The translations under genes were made by a program, and so were the position numbers. Positions 22,041 through 61,683 of a stretch of DNA of 64,000 nucleotides are shown here, in pieces. The notes under the pieces were generated by a model. That model searched no databases. It saw only the letters and a program-made list of their open reading frames with translations, and was not told the origin of the DNA. The DNA is from Microscilla marina ATCC 23134 (GTDB taxonomy: Bacteria > Bacteroidota > Bacteroidia > Cytophagales > Microscillaceae). Position 1 is the first letter of the stretch. Each line of letters opens with the position of its first letter. The stretch covers positions 1 through 64,000 of the forward strand of contig NZ_AAWS01000025.1 of assembly GCF_000169175.1 (NCBI RefSeq), read 5' to 3'.

Positions 22041-22432
22041 GAGCTCCCTATGGTCGGTTCGTAATTGATCCATTCGTCTATTATTCCGGAGTTAGTAGTC
22101 TGTAGACCATATTGGCTTCGCTTTAATTCGTAATTTCCTCATTCGTAATTGAACCATTCGTAATTAGCTAAAGCAGAGCTCCCTATGGTCGGTTCGTAAT
22201 TGATCCATTCGTCTATTATTCCAGAGTTAGTAGTCTGTAGACCATATTGGCTTCGCTTTAATTCGTAATTTCCTCATTCGTAATTGAACCATTCGTAATT
22301 AGCTAAAGCAGAGCTCCCTATGGTCGGTTCGTAATTGATCCATTCGTCTATTATTCCAGAGTTAGTAGTCTGTAGACCATAGTTGCTTCGCCTTCATTCG
22401 TAATTCGTAATTCCCTCATTCGTAATTAATCT
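22041..22432. repeat. Three tandem copies of a 135-bp unit
   Basis: Unit starts at 22041, 22176 and 22311, each beginning GAGCTCCCTATGGTCGG. Each unit contains ATTCGTA repeats and a heptadic stretch GGAGTTA-GTAGTCT-GTAGACC. The last copy is slightly diverged and runs to the stop of the lipoprotein gene. This fills the gap between the two minus-strand genes. Confidence 0.9.
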
Positions 22433-23237
22433 ATTTAAATATTTTGTAACCCACCCAACTACGTTCACCAATGTCAAACAACCAGATATAATCATTGGCA
22501 TACCCAAAGCGGTACTCTTTACTAGTGACAGTGTTTTCGGGCAAATCTATGGTATTGGCAAACTTGTGCGTTTTTTTGTCAAACAAATGCACCTTTTTAT
22601 TCTTATAGTCAAGCAAGCCTATTTCCATACCAGGCTTACTTGTATAAATCATGCTGTTGGCATTCAAGTTGTCGCCATCAGTAGGTAAGCCTATCAGGTA
22701 ATAACTGCTAATGAGTTGGGCATCTTTACGGCTATACCGATATATTTTTTCATAGCTATAATACAAAATCTCGTCAGCGTCAAGGTCATACACGCCACAT
22801 GAGTTGCCATTGGGTTGGTGTAAATCAGCCTTTAATATCACCTTCAGGTCATCGCTTGTAGCATAACCATCTTGGTTGAGTTGTGTTGCGGCAATTCCTT
22901 TTTTTACATTGCGTTCCAGTTGCTTGGTTTGGGGGTTCCACCACATGCCACGGGTGCTCATACCTGCCCTTGCCTGATAAATAGACTTGCCCTGGCTGTC
23001 AAATGTTTCAAGTGGATAACGATAGCTACCCGCAATGACCGAGTAATACATTTGTTTGTTGGGGTGATATACCACCGAACTTGCATTAGAGCCCCGACTG
23101 CCTTTGAAAGTAAGCTTAAGCGATGCTTTGGGGGCAATATCTACTTTTACTTTTTTGCTGCTTGCCTGGTTTGTTTTGCACTGCCAAAGCAGACACACGA
23201 TGCCAAGAAAAAATATCCTCTTGAGGTTTTTTTGCAT
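22431..23237 (-). CDS. Lipoprotein with a beta-propeller-like domain
   Basis: 268 aa. The N-terminus has a signal with lipobox (GIVCLLWQC), giving a lipidated Cys at about 20. The mature part has repeated short strands with aromatic-Tyr patterns (VVYHPNKQMYYSVI, SNKVHLFDKKTHKF-like, YANDYIWLFDIGERSW) that suggest a WD/NHL-type propeller. I cannot name the family. It would sit on the periplasmic or outer face of a membrane. The 3' end abuts the 135-bp repeat array. Confidence 0.65.
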   Translation of the reverse strand: MQKNLKRIFFLGIVCLLWQCKTNQASSKKVKVDIAPKASLKLTFKGSRGSNASSVVYHPNKQMYYSVIAGSYRYPLETFDSQGKSIYQARAGMSTRGMWWNPQTKQLERNVKKGIAATQLNQDGYATSDDLKVILKADLHQPNGNSCGVYDLDADEILYYSYEKIYRYSRKDAQLISSYYLIGLPTDGDNLNANSMIYTSKPGMEIGLLDYKNKKVHLFDKKTHKFANTIDLPENTVTSKEYRFGYANDYIWLFDIGERSWVGYKIFK

Positions 23238-35511: not shown

Positions 35512-35965
35512 ATAGTCGAAACTTAGTAGCCTCTACAGCCTTTAGCCTTTGTTTGGCTGTTTGTATAGAGCTTTTAGCCTTTTTGTTCTCTGTGTAGCTT
35601 TAGCCCTTAGCCTTTTTGTTCTCTGTATAGCTTTAGCCATTAGCTTTTAGCCTTTTTTTGACCGTTTGTATTGGGCTTTTAGCCTTTAGCTTTTTCTTGA
35701 ACTACGATTGGCTTTTAGCCTTTTTTTGACCGTTTGTATTGAGCCCTTAGCTTTTAGCTTTTAGCCTCGCTTCGCGCTCATTCGTAATTGTTTAACTGTT
35801 TGTATTAAGCTCTTAGCCTTGAGTTATCATATTTGCGAATTATTTAGGAATTGGTAACCCGCAGTTTTAGCTGCGCTTCGCGCCAATTCGTAATTGATCC
35901 ATTCGTAATTCGTAATTGATCCATTCGTAATTAATCAATTCGTAATTGAAAAACTCGTAATTAAC
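35512..35965. repeat. Low-complexity heptad array (TTAGCTT and ATTCGTA)
   Basis: The left part repeats TTAGCTT/TTTAGCC many times; the right part repeats ATTCGTA with occasional octamers such as ATTGATCC. It fills the gap between the TonB receptor stop and the DUF4249 start. There is no gene here. Confidence 0.85.
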
Positions 35966-53596: not shown

Positions 53597-53611
53597 TTTA
53601 AATACTCCGCC

Positions 53612-53635
53612 ATTGCTTGTGTCTCCACAAGCAAT
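53612..53635. repeat. REP hairpin a
   Basis: ATTGCTTGTG-TCTC-CACAAGCAAT with the CGCC guide-like tetranucleotide before it. Sixteen bp after the stop of the PLP-enzyme gene. Confidence 0.85.
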
Positions 53636-53706
53636 TCGTAGGGAGACTTCTTATAATCAACCGTGTCACGTTGCCCTGCGGAAGACTTGACACAACTAGC
53701 TCCGCC

Positions 53707-53730
53707 ATTGCTTGTGTCTTTACAAGCAAT
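53707..53730. repeat. REP hairpin b
   Basis: ATTGCTTGTG-TCTT-TACAAGCAAT, preceded by CGCC, same orientation as a. Between a and b is a possible weak stem GTGTCA / TGACAC. Confidence 0.85.
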
Positions 53731-55883: not shown

Positions 55884-56522
55884 ATGAGTATTTCAAAGAG
55901 AATAAAGGACATAAGAGAGCAAAAGGGGTACACCCAAAAATACATGGCAGGAAAGCTCAGTATTGATCAGACTAATTATGGTAGGTTTGAAAAAAGAGGT
56001 AAGAAACTAACCATTGAACAGTTAGAAAGTATTGCAGCGGCTTTAGGGGTAAGCCTCAAAGACATTCTTTTTGGTGAAGCCGAACAAACCAACCCTGATT
56101 TGTCAAAACTGGAGATTGCCTTGCTTCAGTGCAAAACCCAAAACCTGTACTTTGTAGACAATGCCCTCAAGTTTATTCTCAATATTGATACATTGCTACA
56201 AAAGCCCTTAGTAAAATATGCCATAGGCGAAATACTCCACCCCAAGCAAAAAGACCATCAAGCATTTGTAAGGTGCTATTGTGAGCTAAACAACGAGGTA
56301 TTTACCCTTGCCACCTGGCAAAAACCCATCAGCCAAGAAGCTTCACATTTTGCCCACTTCGAACAAAACGGAGAACACCTGTTTAGTGATCACCAACGCA
56401 AAGAAGCCAGTCAGTACAAAGACGCGGCTTTTGCCAACATTCAGCAAAACCACCACCAGTGGACAATCAACTTTTTCAATTTGACGGGGTTTTTTAGGGC
56501 GGCTTTTGGTGGGGTTGGTTAG
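55884..56522 (+). CDS. XRE-family HTH regulator with extra C-terminal domain
   Basis: 212 aa from the ATG at 55884. The HTH_XRE domain is at about 3-65 (RIKDIREQKGYTQKYMAGKL, then TIEQLESIAAALGVSLKDIL). The remaining 140 residues include EIALLQCKTQNLYFVDNAL and are of unknown fold. It is divergent from the KilA-N operon and may repress it. The 206-bp intergenic region should hold both promoters; I saw no clear operator palindrome. Confidence 0.9.
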   Translation: MSISKRIKDIREQKGYTQKYMAGKLSIDQTNYGRFEKRGKKLTIEQLESIAAALGVSLKDILFGEAEQTNPDLSKLEIALLQCKTQNLYFVDNALKFILNIDTLLQKPLVKYAIGEILHPKQKDHQAFVRCYCELNNEVFTLATWQKPISQEASHFAHFEQNGEHLFSDHQRKEASQYKDAAFANIQQNHHQWTINFFNLTGFFRAAFGGVG

Positions 56523-56537
56523 CTCCACCATCTAGTG

Positions 56538-56561
56538 GTTGCTTGTGGAGACACAAGCAAC
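56538..56561. repeat. REP hairpin c (reverse orientation)
   Basis: GTTGCTTGTG-GAGA-CACAAGCAAC followed by GGCG, the complement of CGCC. Sixteen bp after the stop of the XRE gene. Confidence 0.85.
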
Positions 56562-57080
56562 GGCGTAGGATATATCTGAATTGGGCTTTATTTTATTTAC
56601 CCGCTATATTTTGCTTACGCAATGGAAGCTACAAGCTTCCTCAATGATGGGTACAAGTTACGCTGCGCTAAACTTGCACCAGTGGGTATATCTGAATTGG
56701 GCTTTATTTTATTTAGGGAAGCGAAAAAAATAACTTCCTTGACTTCTATTTTTGGCATACGGAATTAGGGTTGTGCGAAGTTTTTAAAATTATTGATATA
56801 CAAACATTTATGCATAAATCAAGAGGTTTATTGTAGGGGCAATCCCTTGCTGTAATGCAATGGAAGTTCGCGATTTATCGGAATGGTCGCCCTAGCGAAG
56901 GAGTGCATACGCCGGCGGAAAGAAAGGCGCTGTTGGTCAGACACGACGCAAATGAGTATACTGTTTCAAAGTACAAGTGTGTATGCCATTTTTTTAAGTT
57001 GGGTAATTAATTACTTTCTTATCCCTTACTCGCTATATTTTGCTTACGCAATGGAAGCTACAAGCTTCCTCAATGATGGG

Positions 57081-57880: not shown

Positions 57881-58048
57881 ATATTTCTTTAATAGGCTTT
57901 ATATAAAACAATATTTGTGTGTATTAGAATCTTGGTAATTGAGGATTAAACTCCCTTCTCTGGCGTAAGCGCCCCTCGCCCCGAAGAAAAATCGGGATTT
58001 ATAAACTTGTGCTTTTTTATTGCGGAAGCATCTTGCCCTGAAGAAAAG

Positions 58049-58404
58049 TCGGGATTTTGAAACTTCCATGTTTTTGCAAAAAATAAATTATAAAAGCCCA
58101 GTTCAGGTATATCTGAATTGGGCTTTATTTACTCGCTGTATTTTGCTTACGCAATGGAAGCTACAAGCTTCCTCAATGATGGGTACAAGTTACGCTGCGC
58201 TAAACTTGCACCAGTGGGGGGAAAAATCGGGATTTTGAAACTTCCATGTTTTTGCAAAAAACAAATTATAAAAGCCCAGTTCAGGTATATCTGAATTGGG
58301 CTTTATTTACTCGCTGTATTTTGCTTACGCAATGGAAGCTACAAGCTTCCTCAATGATGGGTACAAGTTACGCTGCGCTAAACTTGCACCAGTGGGGGCA
58401 CTTC
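58049..58404. repeat. 178-bp tandem repeat, 2 copies
   Basis: Copies start at 58049 and 58227. Each contains a long hairpin AAAGCCCAGTTCAG / CTGAATTGGGCTTT, the GGAAGCT/AGCTTCC hairpin, and the TACAAGTTACGC...CTAAACTTGCACC stretch. Reading frames through it are not believable genes. Confidence 0.9.
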
Positions 58405-58409
58405 TCGCC

Positions 58410-58433
58410 ATTGCTTGTGTCCTCACAAGCAAT
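58410..58433. repeat. REP hairpin d
   Basis: ATTGCTTGTG-TCCT-CACAAGCAAT, preceded by CGCC, immediately downstream of the GG-leader peptide gene on its 3' side. Confidence 0.85.
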
Positions 58434-58448
58434 TCCTAAATTGATTAT

Positions 58449-58658
58449 TTATGCGACAATATTATCTGCTTGACACTGTAAATTACCGCTATTCCACATG
58501 TCTTGTACTCTGTCGGCTTGTGCGTGATGTCCTTTTGCTCTTAAGTGATTAATCACAACTGATACTCTGCTACACTTAATACCACCTTTAAGTGCTGACA
58601 ACTCTTCTTTTTGTAGTTTGAATGCTTTGAAAGCATGTAGGTTTGATATTTTTTTCAT
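58449..58658 (-). CDS. GG-leader peptide precursor with Cys-bearing core
   Basis: 69 aa. The leader KISNLHAFKAFKLQKEELSA ends LKGG, the classic Bacteroidota double-glycine leader (LxxEELxxLKGG). The core (43 aa, IKCSRVSVV...NLQCQADNIVA) has two Cys and no recognisable family. No C39 transporter, lanthipeptide or radical-SAM gene is within the window. It is flanked by REPs and lies in a repeat-rich zone. It may be a bacteriocin-like or signalling peptide. Confidence 0.6.
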   Translation of the reverse strand: MKKISNLHAFKAFKLQKEELSALKGGIKCSRVSVVINHLRAKGHHAQADRVQDMWNSGNLQCQADNIVA

Positions 58659-58854
58659 CTTTTATGTAATTAATAGGATTGATAAAAAATTGTATTGATT
58701 TAATATTGCAAAGGAAGCCAGTAAATGCCTGAAGAAGTTGGACATATTGAGAAAAAAGTAAGAGATATAAGTCCTGCACTGCCTTTTTATTGAAAAAACA
58801 AAAAGCCCAGTTCAGATATACCTGAATTGGGCTTTATTTTATTTACTTCCCGCC

Positions 58855-58878
58855 ATTGCTTGTGTCCTCACAAGCAAT
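58855..58878. repeat. REP hairpin e
   Basis: ATTGCTTGTG-TCCT-CACAAGCAAT preceded by CCGCC. A hairpin AAAGCCCAGTTCAG / CTGAATTGGGCTTT (58802-58836) sits just upstream. Confidence 0.85.
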
Positions 58879-58952
58879 TTCTACATTCTGTCTCCATAAT
58901 GTTTTAAAAAACCAAAATCGCCTATGCGAGTCTCATAAGTTCTCTTCTCGCC
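58879..58952 (-). pseudogene. 3' remnant of a second RAYT gene
   Basis: The 74 bp between REPs e and f translate, on the minus strand, into TYETRIGDFGFLKHYGDRM and a stop. This is nearly the C-terminus of the intact RAYT (FYETDIDDFGFLKHYKDRV). It indicates that an older copy, together with its bordering REP, was deleted apart from its end. Confidence 0.85.
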
Positions 58953-58976
58953 ATTGCTTGTGTCCTCACAAGCAAT
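58953..58976. repeat. REP hairpin f, left boundary of RAYT
   Basis: ATTGCTTGTG-TCCT-CACAAGCAAT preceded by TCGCC. It lies 5 bp from the stop codon of the RAYT gene. Confidence 0.9.
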
Positions 58977-58981
58977 TCCTC

Positions 58982-59503
58982 CTACACTCTGTCCTTGTAA
59001 TGCTTTAAAAAACCAAAATCGTCTATGTCAGTCTCATAAAATTTGGCAGAAGAATAATAATATTGAGCAGGTTCATTTGCTAACGACCATTTTTCTACAA
59101 CAGGGTTATTATGAATGTATTCCAGCTTTTGCTCCAGTACGGCAGGGGTATACAACCAAACAGGTAAGCTGTTGCGTTGCCAAAACCGATGATTTCGTGC
59201 TTGATCTGATGCTTGAAAATATGGAAGGATTTGCGGATAATAAGTGCGTGAATGTTCTAAAAATTGGTGAGCAGTGTATTTCATAAAACTGGCGTGAGGC
59301 ATTTCTTTGCCATTTTTTTCCAGCATTTCCCAAATCAAGTGAATGTGATTAGGCATGATGACAAAACCGTACACCGCGATTTTGTTTTTGGTAGACAAGT
59401 ACTGCAAGCTATCAATAATGATGTTTTTGTAATCATCTTTTTTGAGTAACCTTTTCCAATTCAATATGGTAGCAGTATAAAAGTAAATCTGGTTGAGCTC
59501 CAT
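58982..59503 (-). CDS. REP-associated tyrosine transposase (RAYT, Y1 HUH family)
   Basis: 173 aa from the ATG at 59503; the longer frame to 59551 runs into the flanking REP and is not used. It belongs to the IS200/IS605-like Y1 transposases. The HUH motif is in YGFVIMPNHIHLIWEM (H53 and H55), and the catalytic Tyr is Y129 in KLEYIHNNPV. These enzymes nick single-stranded DNA at REP hairpins. REP palindromes bound the gene 5 bp after its stop and 25 bp before its start, in inverted orientation, with a conserved CGCC beside each. The protein could mobilise the REPs spread through this zone. Confidence 0.95.
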   Translation of the reverse strand: MELNQIYFYTATILNWKRLLKKDDYKNIIIDSLQYLSTKNKIAVYGFVIMPNHIHLIWEMLEKNGKEMPHASFMKYTAHQFLEHSRTYYPQILPYFQASDQARNHRFWQRNSLPVWLYTPAVLEQKLEYIHNNPVVEKWSLANEPAQYYYSSAKFYETDIDDFGFLKHYKDRV

Positions 59504-59528
59504 GTTTTGTAATGGTTTTGCCCTGTGG

Positions 59529-59552
59529 GTTGCTTGTGGAGACACAAGCAAC
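59529..59552. repeat. REP hairpin g, right boundary of RAYT
   Basis: GTTGCTTGTG-GAGA-CACAAGCAAC followed by GGCG, inverted with respect to f. Together f and g enclose the gene. Confidence 0.9.
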
Positions 59553-59636
59553 GGCGTAAGAAGATTTTTGTATAGAAAACAATATACCCATTATCCCAAT
59601 CCAAACCCCACCCCTGCAAGGTTAAAATTTCCGCAC

Positions 59637-59670
59637 AAAAAAAGCCCCACCCAAAAAGAGTGGAGCCTCC
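59637..59670 (-). terminator. Intrinsic terminator of mnmE
   Basis: On the minus strand AGGCTCCACTC pairs with GGGTGGGGCTT (three G-U pairs), followed by a T run, 22 bp after the mnmE stop. Confidence 0.75.
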
Positions 59671-59691
59671 TAATACCTTGATTTTTAGGCG

Positions 59692-61083
59692 CTATTTCCC
59701 AATACAAAACTTACTAAAAATAAACTCCAACAAATCATTATTAGATATTTGCCCCGTGATTTCCCCCAAATGATAAATGGCGGTGCGGATGTCGCTTGCC
59801 ACCATCTCGGTAGAGAGCCCCAAGTCTAGAGTTTGTTGCACTTGGGCAAGTGCCTTGAGGGTGTCTTGCAGTGCCTCATAGTGGCGCAAGTTAGTCACAA
59901 TCACCTGGTCTTGGTTCGAGAGTTGGTGGGCTTGCACCGCCTCAATGAGTAATTGTTGGAGACGGTCTATTTGTTGGTGTTCTTTAGCCGAAATGCCACA
60001 CCCTACCACCCCATCGGGCAAAAACAAGTCAAAACGAGCGTATTCGTCTATTTTGTTCGCCACCACAATCACCTTGGTGTCGGGATGGTCAGCTTGCAAT
60101 TGAGCCACTTGCGCTTGCCAGTCTTCGCGTTTTTCTTCTACCGCATCAAACATATACAGCAATATTTGCGACTCCTTCATTTTGGCAAAAGCCCGTGCTA
60201 TGCCTATGCTCTCCACCTCGTCAGCGGTTTCGCGTAGCCCTGCCGTGTCTATAAACCTAAACCGGATGCCCTCAAGCACCACTTCGTCTTCTATAGAGTC
60301 GCGGGTAGTACCTGGTATAGCCGAAACAATCGCTTTATCTTCTTGCAGCAAGGCATTGAGTAGGGTAGACTTACCCGCATTGGGTTTGCCCACTATAGCC
60401 ACGGGCACCCCGTTTTTGATGGCGTTGCCCAAGGCAAACGACTGTGCCATGTCGGTTACTGCCGTTTTGAGGTGGTTGAGTTGGCGTTGCATTTCGTCGC
60501 GGTTGGCAAACTCCACGTCCTCTTCCGAGAAATCGAGCTCCAGCTCCAGCAAGGCGGCAAGTTTAGTAAACTCTTCGCGCAATTGGGTGATTTTTTTTGA
60601 GAAACCACCCCGCATTTGTTTCATTGCCACTTGGTGGGCGGCTTTAGAGTCAGAAGCAATCAAGTCGGCAATTGCCTCGGCTTGAGCCAAGTCCATGCGT
60701 CCGTTGAGGTAGGCACGTTGGGTAAATTCGCCCGCCTTGGCGAGGCGCGCCCCTTTGCCAATGAGCAATTGAATCACTTGCTGAATAATGTACTGCGAGC
60801 CGTGGCACGAAACCTCTATCACGTCTTCTTTGGTAAACGAACGGGGCGCTTTGAACAATGCCGCCACCACTTCGTCTATGATTTGCCCTTCGTCGTTGCG
60901 AATGGTACCAAAATGCACGGTGTGCGAGGCTTGTTCGCTCAGGGTTTTACCATAAAACACTTGATCACATACCGCAAAAGTGTCTTTGCCCGACACCCTT
61001 ATCACGCCTATAGCACCCGAACCACTGGGGGTGGAGAGTGCTACTATAGTATCTTCTTTTTGAGTAAATTGTTCTGGATTCAT
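59692..61083 (-). CDS. mnmE: tRNA uridine-5-carboxymethylaminomethyl modification GTPase
   Basis: 463 aa from the ATG at 61083. MnmE with MnmG makes the cmnm5 modification at U34 of several tRNAs. The N-terminal folate-binding domain (IVALSTPSGSGAIGVIRVSG) is followed by a helical domain. The G domain carries G1 GKPNAGKSTLL, G3 DTAGLRET and G4 NKID. The C-terminal FCIGK motif with its Cys is intact. Length is normal. It is transcribed alone, and the sequence before it is a heptad repeat array. Confidence 0.97.
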   Translation of the reverse strand: MNPEQFTQKEDTIVALSTPSGSGAIGVIRVSGKDTFAVCDQVFYGKTLSEQASHTVHFGTIRNDEGQIIDEVVAALFKAPRSFTKEDVIEVSCHGSQYIIQQVIQLLIGKGARLAKAGEFTQRAYLNGRMDLAQAEAIADLIASDSKAAHQVAMKQMRGGFSKKITQLREEFTKLAALLELELDFSEEDVEFANRDEMQRQLNHLKTAVTDMAQSFALGNAIKNGVPVAIVGKPNAGKSTLLNALLQEDKAIVSAIPGTTRDSIEDEVVLEGIRFRFIDTAGLRETADEVESIGIARAFAKMKESQILLYMFDAVEEKREDWQAQVAQLQADHPDTKVIVVANKIDEYARFDLFLPDGVVGCGISAKEHQQIDRLQQLLIEAVQAHQLSNQDQVIVTNLRHYEALQDTLKALAQVQQTLDLGLSTEMVASDIRTAIYHLGEITGQISNNDLLEFIFSKFCIGK

Positions 61084-61085
61084 TT

Positions 61086-61520
61086 TTCTTATAGTCAATA
61101 GTTGGGAGTCGGTAGTTGGGAGCTTCTACAGCCTCAAGTCCTTAGATACCGACGCATATTGGTGCTTTAAGCAACAAGTAGCAAGCAATTAGTCCAGAGT
61201 CTGGAGTCCGTAGTTTTAAGGTTCGCTTTGCGCCCATTAGGAATTACGAGTTTGAGAATTACGAATTGGGCGAAGCCATTTGTAATTTAGTCCAGAGTTA
61301 GTAGTCTGTAGACCATAGTGGCTTCGCGCCCATTAGGAATTACGAGTTTGAGAATTACGAATTACGCGAAACCATTCGTAATTTAGTTCATAGTTTAGTA
61401 GTTTGTAGACCATAGTGGCTTTGCCTTCATTCGTAATTCGTAATTGAATATTAGTCCGGAGTTAGTAGTCTGTAGATCATAGTGGCTTTGCCTTCATTCG
61501 TAATTGACTAATTCGTAATT
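61086..61520. repeat. Degenerate heptad array with TAGT core
   Basis: Starting 3 bp from the mnmE start, TATAGTC-AATAGTT-GGGAGTC-GGTAGTT repeats with a 7-bp period. Further arrays of the same kind appear at about 61195, 61290, 61400 and 61450, mixed with ATTCGTA repeats and a TCCTTAGATACCGA block near 61140. There is no gene in the gap. Confidence 0.85.
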
Positions 61521-61683
61521 AAAAAAGCCTTCTCTCAATAAGCCTGCAATATAGGCAATGTAAGCTAACTCATTAATAATTAGTGGTCAAACATTTATCA
61601 TTAAGCAAAAGTTTTTATATTTAACTTTTTGAAGGCCATATAACGCAAAACATAAGTTATTTTAACTGAAAGTGATTTGTAAA

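Follow-up and report, generated by a model that had tools for sequence, protein, structure and literature searches.

A RAYT gene boxed by inverted, CGCC-tagged REP hairpins in Microscilla marina: a probable REPtron of a thinly described RAYT subclass

Introduction

The stretch of DNA analysed here (the window; 64,000 nucleotides of Microscilla marina ATCC 23134) contains a gene of the RAYT (TnpAREP) type enclosed by two short hairpins. The locus raises the question whether gene and hairpins belong to one REP system, what could take the place of the GTAG guide in it, and whether the hairpins or the whole unit would move. The original prediction described a self-contained REP-mobilising unit with an invariant CGCC as a possible guide, in a phylum where such systems are little studied. 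Studies of GTAG recognition have dealt with group 2 and group 3 RAYTs.

The statement on the phylum is fair, but the lineage has already been named: it is subclass 2.6 of the TnpAY1 transposases. In the main text of Quentin et al. 2018 (PMC6006769), the motif Y---Q marks class 1, to which the IS200 enzymes belong, and Y---NP marks class 2; the canonical GT[AG]G RAYT groups are subclasses 2.2, 2.4, 2.5, 2.7 and 2.8. Subclass 2.6 (group 5 of Bertels) is described there as occurring mostly in Bacteroidetes, with proteins of ~179 aa, the motifs NH[LIV]H, WQ and YIH[QN]NP, a guide-contact region that is not conserved and a short insertion between αC and β4. Its genes are without GT[AG]G and are flanked by "atypical secondary structures" with copies elsewhere.

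The RAYT locus

The gene, the hairpins and the other REP copies of the window are as follows (match starts are those of a scan allowing 3 mismatches).

53608..53635, plus strand: REP copy with CGCC tag (match start 53613)
53703..53730, plus strand: REP copy with CGCC tag (match start 53708), one mismatch at the stem apex
56538..56565, minus strand: REP copy with CGCC tag (match start 56539), just past the end of an HTH ORF
58406..58433, plus strand: REP copy with CGCC tag (match start 58411)
58851..58878, plus strand: REP copy (match start 58856), same orientation as the 3' REP and 98 bp away from it
58881-58938, minus strand: diverged second copy of the RAYT 3' end (~58 nt, 84% identical) between two REPs, a tandem unit of RAYT tail plus REP
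58949..58976, plus strand: 3' REP (match start 58954); tag CGCC 58949-58952, 24-nt hairpin 58953-58976, loop TCCT; 5 bp from the stop codon
58982..59503, minus strand: RAYT (TnpAREP) gene, 173 aa; N52-H53-I54-H55, W108-Q109 and putative catalytic Y129 in YIHNNP
59529..59556, minus strand: 5' REP, inverted (match start 59530); hairpin 59552-59529, loop TCTC, tag CGCC 59556-59553; 25 bp from the ATG

As can be seen from the list, the sequence confirms that the gene is boxed by two REP hairpins in inverted orientation, and the predicted distances of 5 and 25 bp, with CGCC on the outer sides, are exact to the base. Both boxing hairpins have a 10-bp stem and a 4-nt loop, and their inverted arms are 89% complementary over 27 nt. 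Folded as single-stranded DNA, these two and a third copy reach about -10 kcal/mol each (0 of 200 shuffles of each were as good). Seven REP copies with at most 3 mismatches are present in the 64-kb window, for which 100 shuffles gave 0.00 on average. The CGCC that was called invariant is indeed found in all seven (7/7) and, over the whole genome, in 89 of 97 matches. The 3' hairpin is part of a small tandem array containing the second copy of the RAYT 3' end.

The window also holds other repeats. A 178-bp unit with the palindrome AAAAGCCCAGTTCAGGTATATCTGAATTGGGCTTTATTT forms two tandem copies, 99% identical, at 58043-58398, with weaker copies (63-67%) at 56511 and 56940. Short repeat families built on TTCGTAATT and TTAGTAGTCTGTAGACCATA lie at 22041-22445, 35884-35962 and 61225-61523; some repeats of this type also adjoin mnmE in a sister species of the same genus (G001).

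The RAYT protein

The ORF is intact according to the ORF list and the sequence, with the ATG at 59503 (minus strand) and the stop codon TAG at 58984-58982. The TTG start of an alternative 189-aa ORF falls within the 5' hairpin, and the alignment of homologues begins at the ATG, not at this TTG. NHIH (N52, H53, I54, H55) and Y129 are invariant in all 76 aligned sequences (76/76), as is W108, and N133 is kept in at least 90% of them. The AlphaFold model of the 173-aa protein, made with the 76 aligned sequences, has a pLDDT of 95.1. Its first-ranked Foldseek match in the PDB is 4er8, a RAYT bound to REP (E 2.4e-8, TM 0.64/0.67), followed by the TnpA proteins of ISDra2 and IS608; the PDB search by sequence alone gave one chance-level match (E 0.85). 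Two family models stayed below their cut-offs, namely NF047646 (72.5 bits vs 80, E 3.3e-20) and PF01797 (17.2 vs 23). The NF047646 cut-off is a threshold of the model and not a biological feature, and it was ranked under fold, motifs and context.

The distance from W108 to Y129 is 21 residues and that from Y129 to N133 is 4. The same spacings are found in E. coli TnpAREP for W94-Y115 and Y115-N119. The positions W94 and N119 are those given for the E. coli protein in the main text of PMC6006769. The Y---Q motif of IS200/IS605 transposases is absent from the protein, which has Y129---N133-P134. Its motifs NHIH, WQ and YIHNNP match those printed for subclass 2.6, at a length of 173 aa, and by motif it appears to fit this subclass. 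The protein is thus assigned to the RAYT/TnpAREP family (Y1/HUH) and is likely a single-strand DNA-cutting enzyme.

The genome of the window (G000) has one intact RAYT copy of this subtype. A second RAYT (L109, G000:C5:271800-274400) is 44% identical to that of the window. It sits amid an array of two other alternating long-loop hairpins, unlike the GCC/TCYY design described below: TATTGGTC...GACCAATA in 9 copies and CTTGGTC...GACCAAG in 7 copies, often 130 apart.

REP population of the genome

The search of the 9.77-Mb genome with a strict 22-nt pattern (at most 3 mismatches) gave 38 places against 2 for the reversed pattern used as a control. Hairpins of this search, read in orientation in the fetched stretches, carry CGCC in 29 of 30 cases and TGCC in one (1/30). 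A loose pattern, fixing only CC, one stem G, one stem C and the GTGTCY/CAC apex, gave 97 matches in this genome (0 in the reversed control) and 720 over 57 genomes (5 in the control). All 97 were fetched and read. The REPs are therefore not confined to the RAYT zone, and the prediction of an intact RAYT with cognate REPs holds: catalytic motifs are kept, the boxing is inverted and copies are found genome-wide.

The tag positions read CGCC in 89 matches, TACC in 3, CACC in 2, TGCC in 2 and AGCC in 1. The hairpins form at least five stem subfamilies (A 17, B 12, C 26, D 23, E 13, F 4, other 2), and CGCC holds across them though the search fixed CC only. Subfamilies C and E look bulged, with one extra base in the 5' arm. 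Subfamily A, the only one boxed with RAYT in this genome and that of the cognate REPs, has CGCC in 17/17. Direct reading found no GT[AG]G 5' of the boxing REPs; the 97-match search could not have shown it, because its pattern required CC. The tag does stand, as predicted, 5' of the REP, in the position held by GTAG in other RAYT systems.

Counting all 97 matches as free REPs was rejected: of the 23 D-type hairpins, 16 are enclosed by two terminal inverted repeats (TIRs) of a small element and 6 are next to a single one. When these 16 enclosed hairpins are set aside, CGCC is present in 76 of 81 matches.

An element inserted into the REP apex

This element, of 126-370 bp with TIRs CCATAGCCGTCAGG, was found in 18 copies in the fetched stretches (16 in G000 and 2 in G001; for example L113 488-665, L267 244-376 and L296 1132-1501). 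At such a length it is too short for a transposase gene. Exact 8-bp duplications are present at 17 of the 18 copies, and 16 of these 17 read TGTCYYCA or its complement, which is the REP apex; the element inserts into the REP apex loop. When the flanks are joined without the element, a REP-like sequence is restored, tagged CGCC in 15 of 17 rows read by eye, TGCC in one and without tag in one; the 10-bp stem is perfect in 6 and imperfect in the rest. The interrupted REPs test tag and apex fairly independently, because the stretches had been fetched for other matches, often the hairpin inside the element. Many copies carry such a REP-like hairpin (subfamily D) themselves.

REP-targeting insertion sequences, namely ISPsy8, ISPpu9/10 and ISRm22, insert at a fixed point of the REP, as stated in the available text of PMC1525189; ISRm22 sits on the axis of the palindrome and has 6-bp repeats. 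Unlike these as described there, the present element has only 126-370 bp, makes 8-bp duplications and usually has a REP-like hairpin of its own.

Hairpins flanking related RAYT genes

The best 80 of at least 278 related stretches and the window gave 81 RAYT loci with 400-bp flanks; among the fetched loci, the relatives with a named group are Bacteroidota. A total of 271 short hairpins was counted in these flanks. Ten Markov shuffles yielded 18-27, and 150 control stretches at a distance of 1.4-1.8 kb yielded 12. A TCNN loop is present on one strand of 228 of the 271. When only this loop is used for orientation, the triplet immediately 5' of the stem is NCC in 174 of the 228 (GCC 105, CCC 36, TCC 19, ACC 14), and the 3' side is without such a motif (commonest triplet 20/228). 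In the other 54 no NCC can be read in the place of the tag; in one of these a base is masked (N-CC). TCNN hairpins occur at 70 loci, at 59 of them on both sides, and are absent from 11 of the 81. Tag-outward hairpins stand on both sides at 55/81 loci and tag-inward ones at 15/81; one locus may hold both kinds.

Stem pairs 9 and 10, which the finder did not require, are formed in 198/228 (shuffle mean 96) and 168/228 (shuffle mean 66, maximum 88), and pair 11 in 25/228; therefore the stem is of 10 bp. Several pair types occur at each stem position. The consensus from the flanks of the 81 loci is GCC, a 10-bp stem and a GTG-TCYY-CAC apex. The core of the tag is GCC and not CGCC, because among 68 copies in the relative G004 (at most 2 mismatches) the leading C drifts while GCC stays (24, 3, 0 and 1 mismatches on the four letters). 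The tag varies between lineages and tends to agree inside one locus: the agreement is 58% of 355 same-locus pairs against 24% after shuffling (maximum 29%), where the copies of a locus may be of common origin. At some loci all hairpins have another tag (L025 GTT 4/4, L079 CTA 3/3, L046 GTG 3/3).

It could be supposed that the main role of the hairpins is that of an RNA or DNA structure (terminator, mRNA stabiliser or binding site), the tag being a part of that. Such functions are reported for other REPs in the main text of PMC6006769, and 42 of 43 REP copies tested in 3-kb loci are not wholly within an ORF of at least 120 aa. However, no T-run was seen behind the type-A stem in the genome copies read, a one-sided unpaired tag tied to loop orientation is needless for a terminator, and a structural role would not explain why RAYT genes of many genera are boxed. 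Such a role as the main one is improbable.

Doublets and distribution among genomes

Close pairs, defined as neighbouring REPs within 200 bp, are arranged differently in different genomes. They are tag-out in 6/6 cases in G012 (41-66 bp) and in 17/22 in G042 (mostly ~60 bp; 100 of 102 matches used), mostly tag-in in G034 (6/9) and G049 (3/4), and tag-out in 5/11 cases in G000 (71-155 bp). REPIN-like doublets thus exist in the Bacteroidota REP lineage with a lineage-specific arrangement and are not the rule in G000.

Of 57 genomes, G000 included, 12 have a RAYT of the window kind (identity of ~40% upwards, counting the G004 fragments). At least 4 pattern matches are present in 8 of these 12 and in 8 of the 45 without such a RAYT (Fisher p 0.002). 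Four of the 12 have 0 matches (G020, G028, G033, G048). REP matches with no RAYT match occur in G051 (135 matches; 3-Mb genome, 100% complete), G022 (18) and G036 (4), in these three even by profile, and in G013, which is 79% complete. REP presence was rejected as a proxy for RAYT: the association is real, yet orphan-REP genomes and RAYT genomes without the hairpin occur.

Comparison with the sister species

The RAYT of G001 is 94% identical to that of the window and has the same neighbourhood; mnmE lies ~1.4 kb beyond it, and the 297-aa ORF that intervenes there is missing from this place in the window. A second G001 copy (92% identical, with a stop codon inside) is ~6.5 kb away on the same contig and is followed by ~100 bp resembling the flank of the window gene on the mnmE side (L179 1162-1258 vs window 59614-59709). 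It looks like a segmental duplication, because this flank is copied along. Tandem arrays of RAYT 3' tail plus REP (L179 1-360 and 7190-7350; window 58851-59040) have 5 and 2 units in G001 and 2 in G000 when the end of the gene itself is included. Their junctions differ between the two genomes and indicate no single dinucleotide as a cleavage site.

The second G001 copy bears on the idea that RAYT and both REP ends transpose together as an IS-like unit. The ends are inverted with the tags outside and two close gene copies lie on one G001 contig, as such a unit might leave. Against this, G000 has a single intact copy of the window subtype, the second G001 copy looks like a segmental duplication, and the protein has the class-2 Y---NP and not the class-1 Y---Q. 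We regard an IS-like unit as very improbable; neither whole-unit transposition nor the predicted self-contained REP-mobilising unit is supported.

Single REPs do differ between the two species. At the orthologous site of the REP at G000:C34:79270, G001 has an added REP plus a few flanking bases, as well as another REP split by the TIR element and a ~106-bp repeat; this is presence/absence of a REP at one orthologous site in two species compared. It is possible that the REP of window 53613 is missing in G001. The G001 match stops at 53597, ~10 bp short of the tag, and the other flank has its matches on other contigs; in the last 327 bases of the contig there is neither such a REP nor a match to the window. 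The site comparison at G000:C17 gave scattered partial matches only. A degenerate REP, read by eye, follows the same HTH ORF in G001 too.

At the corresponding place G001 lacks a window segment of ~2.3 kb that lies between REPs. Inside this segment, at 58449-58658 (minus strand), is a small ORF whose peptide opens like a leader, up to a double glycine (ELSALKGG), and continues with a short Cys-containing core; it gives the impression of a secreted-peptide precursor.

The REPs might also be a relic spread by RAYT-independent processes (slippage, recombination of tandem copies, hitch-hiking on the TIR element), the RAYT being domesticated or idle. The tandem arrays with unlike junctions resemble slippage or unequal exchange, subfamily D resides mostly in the TIR element, and G051, G022 and G036 have REP populations without RAYT. 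In addition, premature stops are present in 5 of 80 fetched related RAYTs and in one of the two closest G001 copies. This explanation deserves attention but seems unlikely, with an intact window RAYT that keeps its catalytic residues, the stem, apex and tag retained through pair changes, and the co-occurrence of hairpin design and RAYT all speaking against it.

Tag and protein residues

Residue 122 is Val in 37 of 42 RAYTs with GCC-tagged hairpins and in 1 of 22 others. Covariation of tag and protein was not accepted as a result: across the tree there are only 5 changes of the tag label and 2 supported pairs that are independent, and the enrichment of tag association in region 108-125 is not significant when the tree is allowed for (p 0.11). 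The V122 association with the GCC tag may serve as a lead only. A draw of 395 genomes from the phylum gave 13 with a RAYT match at E ≤ 1e-40, which points to a patchy distribution of RAYTs of the window kind and is too few to settle covariation. It is conceivable, though we would not yet wager on it, that Bacteroidota RAYTs use a changeable NCC guide in place of GTAG (GCC by default, CCC, TCC or ACC elsewhere, rarely GTT or CTA), co-evolving with residues just before the catalytic tyrosine.

Discussion

The window system is a real REPtron in a named but thinly described RAYT subclass. With a probability of roughly 80%, it is the REPtron of a Bacteroidota RAYT lineage whose RAYT is a Y1 HUH single-strand endonuclease with the cognate REP hairpin as substrate. 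This reading builds on the intact catalytic motifs, the RAYT fold, the boxed architecture, the tag and stem conserved in the genome and in Bacteroidota, the dispersed population and the doublets in relatives. Speaking against it are the REP populations in genomes without a RAYT, the four RAYT genomes with 0 matches, the restriction of boxing to subfamily A in G000 (B, C, E and F are not boxed), the two family models under their cut-offs, the flank hairpins without NCC, the loci without TCNN hairpins or with tag-inward ones on both sides, and the close pairs of G000, G034 and G049 that are mixed or mostly tag-in. Binding, cleavage and mobility would proceed as follows. When a strand is single, for example as lagging-strand template, the REP would form a stem of 10 bp, on which GTG/CAC closes a TCYY loop. 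The RAYT would bind this stem-loop together with the unpaired GCC at its 5' foot. The GCC tag, for which a guide role is plausible, would be the counterpart of GTAG and position, or belong to, the cleavage site. Y129 would attack the DNA, and REPs or REP doublets would be cut and rejoined, so that REPs would spread in trans while the RAYT gene stays put.

The system resembles that of E. coli TnpAREP (4er8) in the fold, the HUH-Y core, the W-Q spacing, the inverted boxing, the unpaired 5' tag at the stem foot and, in relatives, the doublets. It differs in that the REPs carry GCC/NCC, not GTAG, and that the subfamily A stem is perfect and short; E100, H101 and R104 of the E. coli protein correspond, matched by spacing only, to P114, V115 and Y118. 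The group 3 RAYT TnpAMb also has a 5' tag, tested there as a cleavage-site guide (available text of PMC8266576). Tag sequence and host group are different, and activity was shown for TnpAMb, whereas the window RAYT is known from sequence.

Within the literature searched, only PMC6006769 and PMC3733652 join RAYT/REP with Bacteroidota; the latter, in the available part of its text, links REP with Bacteroidota once, for CGTC repeats. In comparison with subclass 2.6 as described, a consensus is here defined (GCC tag, 10-bp stem, GTG-TCYY-CAC apex), and the main text of PMC6006769 gives none. A REP consensus with a GCC/NCC tag is therefore new within the literature searched, although Additional file 2 Table S1 of that paper may list such sequences.

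A lineage with a different and equally regular tag, natural variants and a clean consensus makes the generality of the 5' guide rule directly testable. If the changeable-guide reading is true, RAYT targeting could be re-codable via three bases and one helix. That the same REP hairpins are targeted by a second, unrelated mobile element points to a layered repeat ecology in these large genomes.
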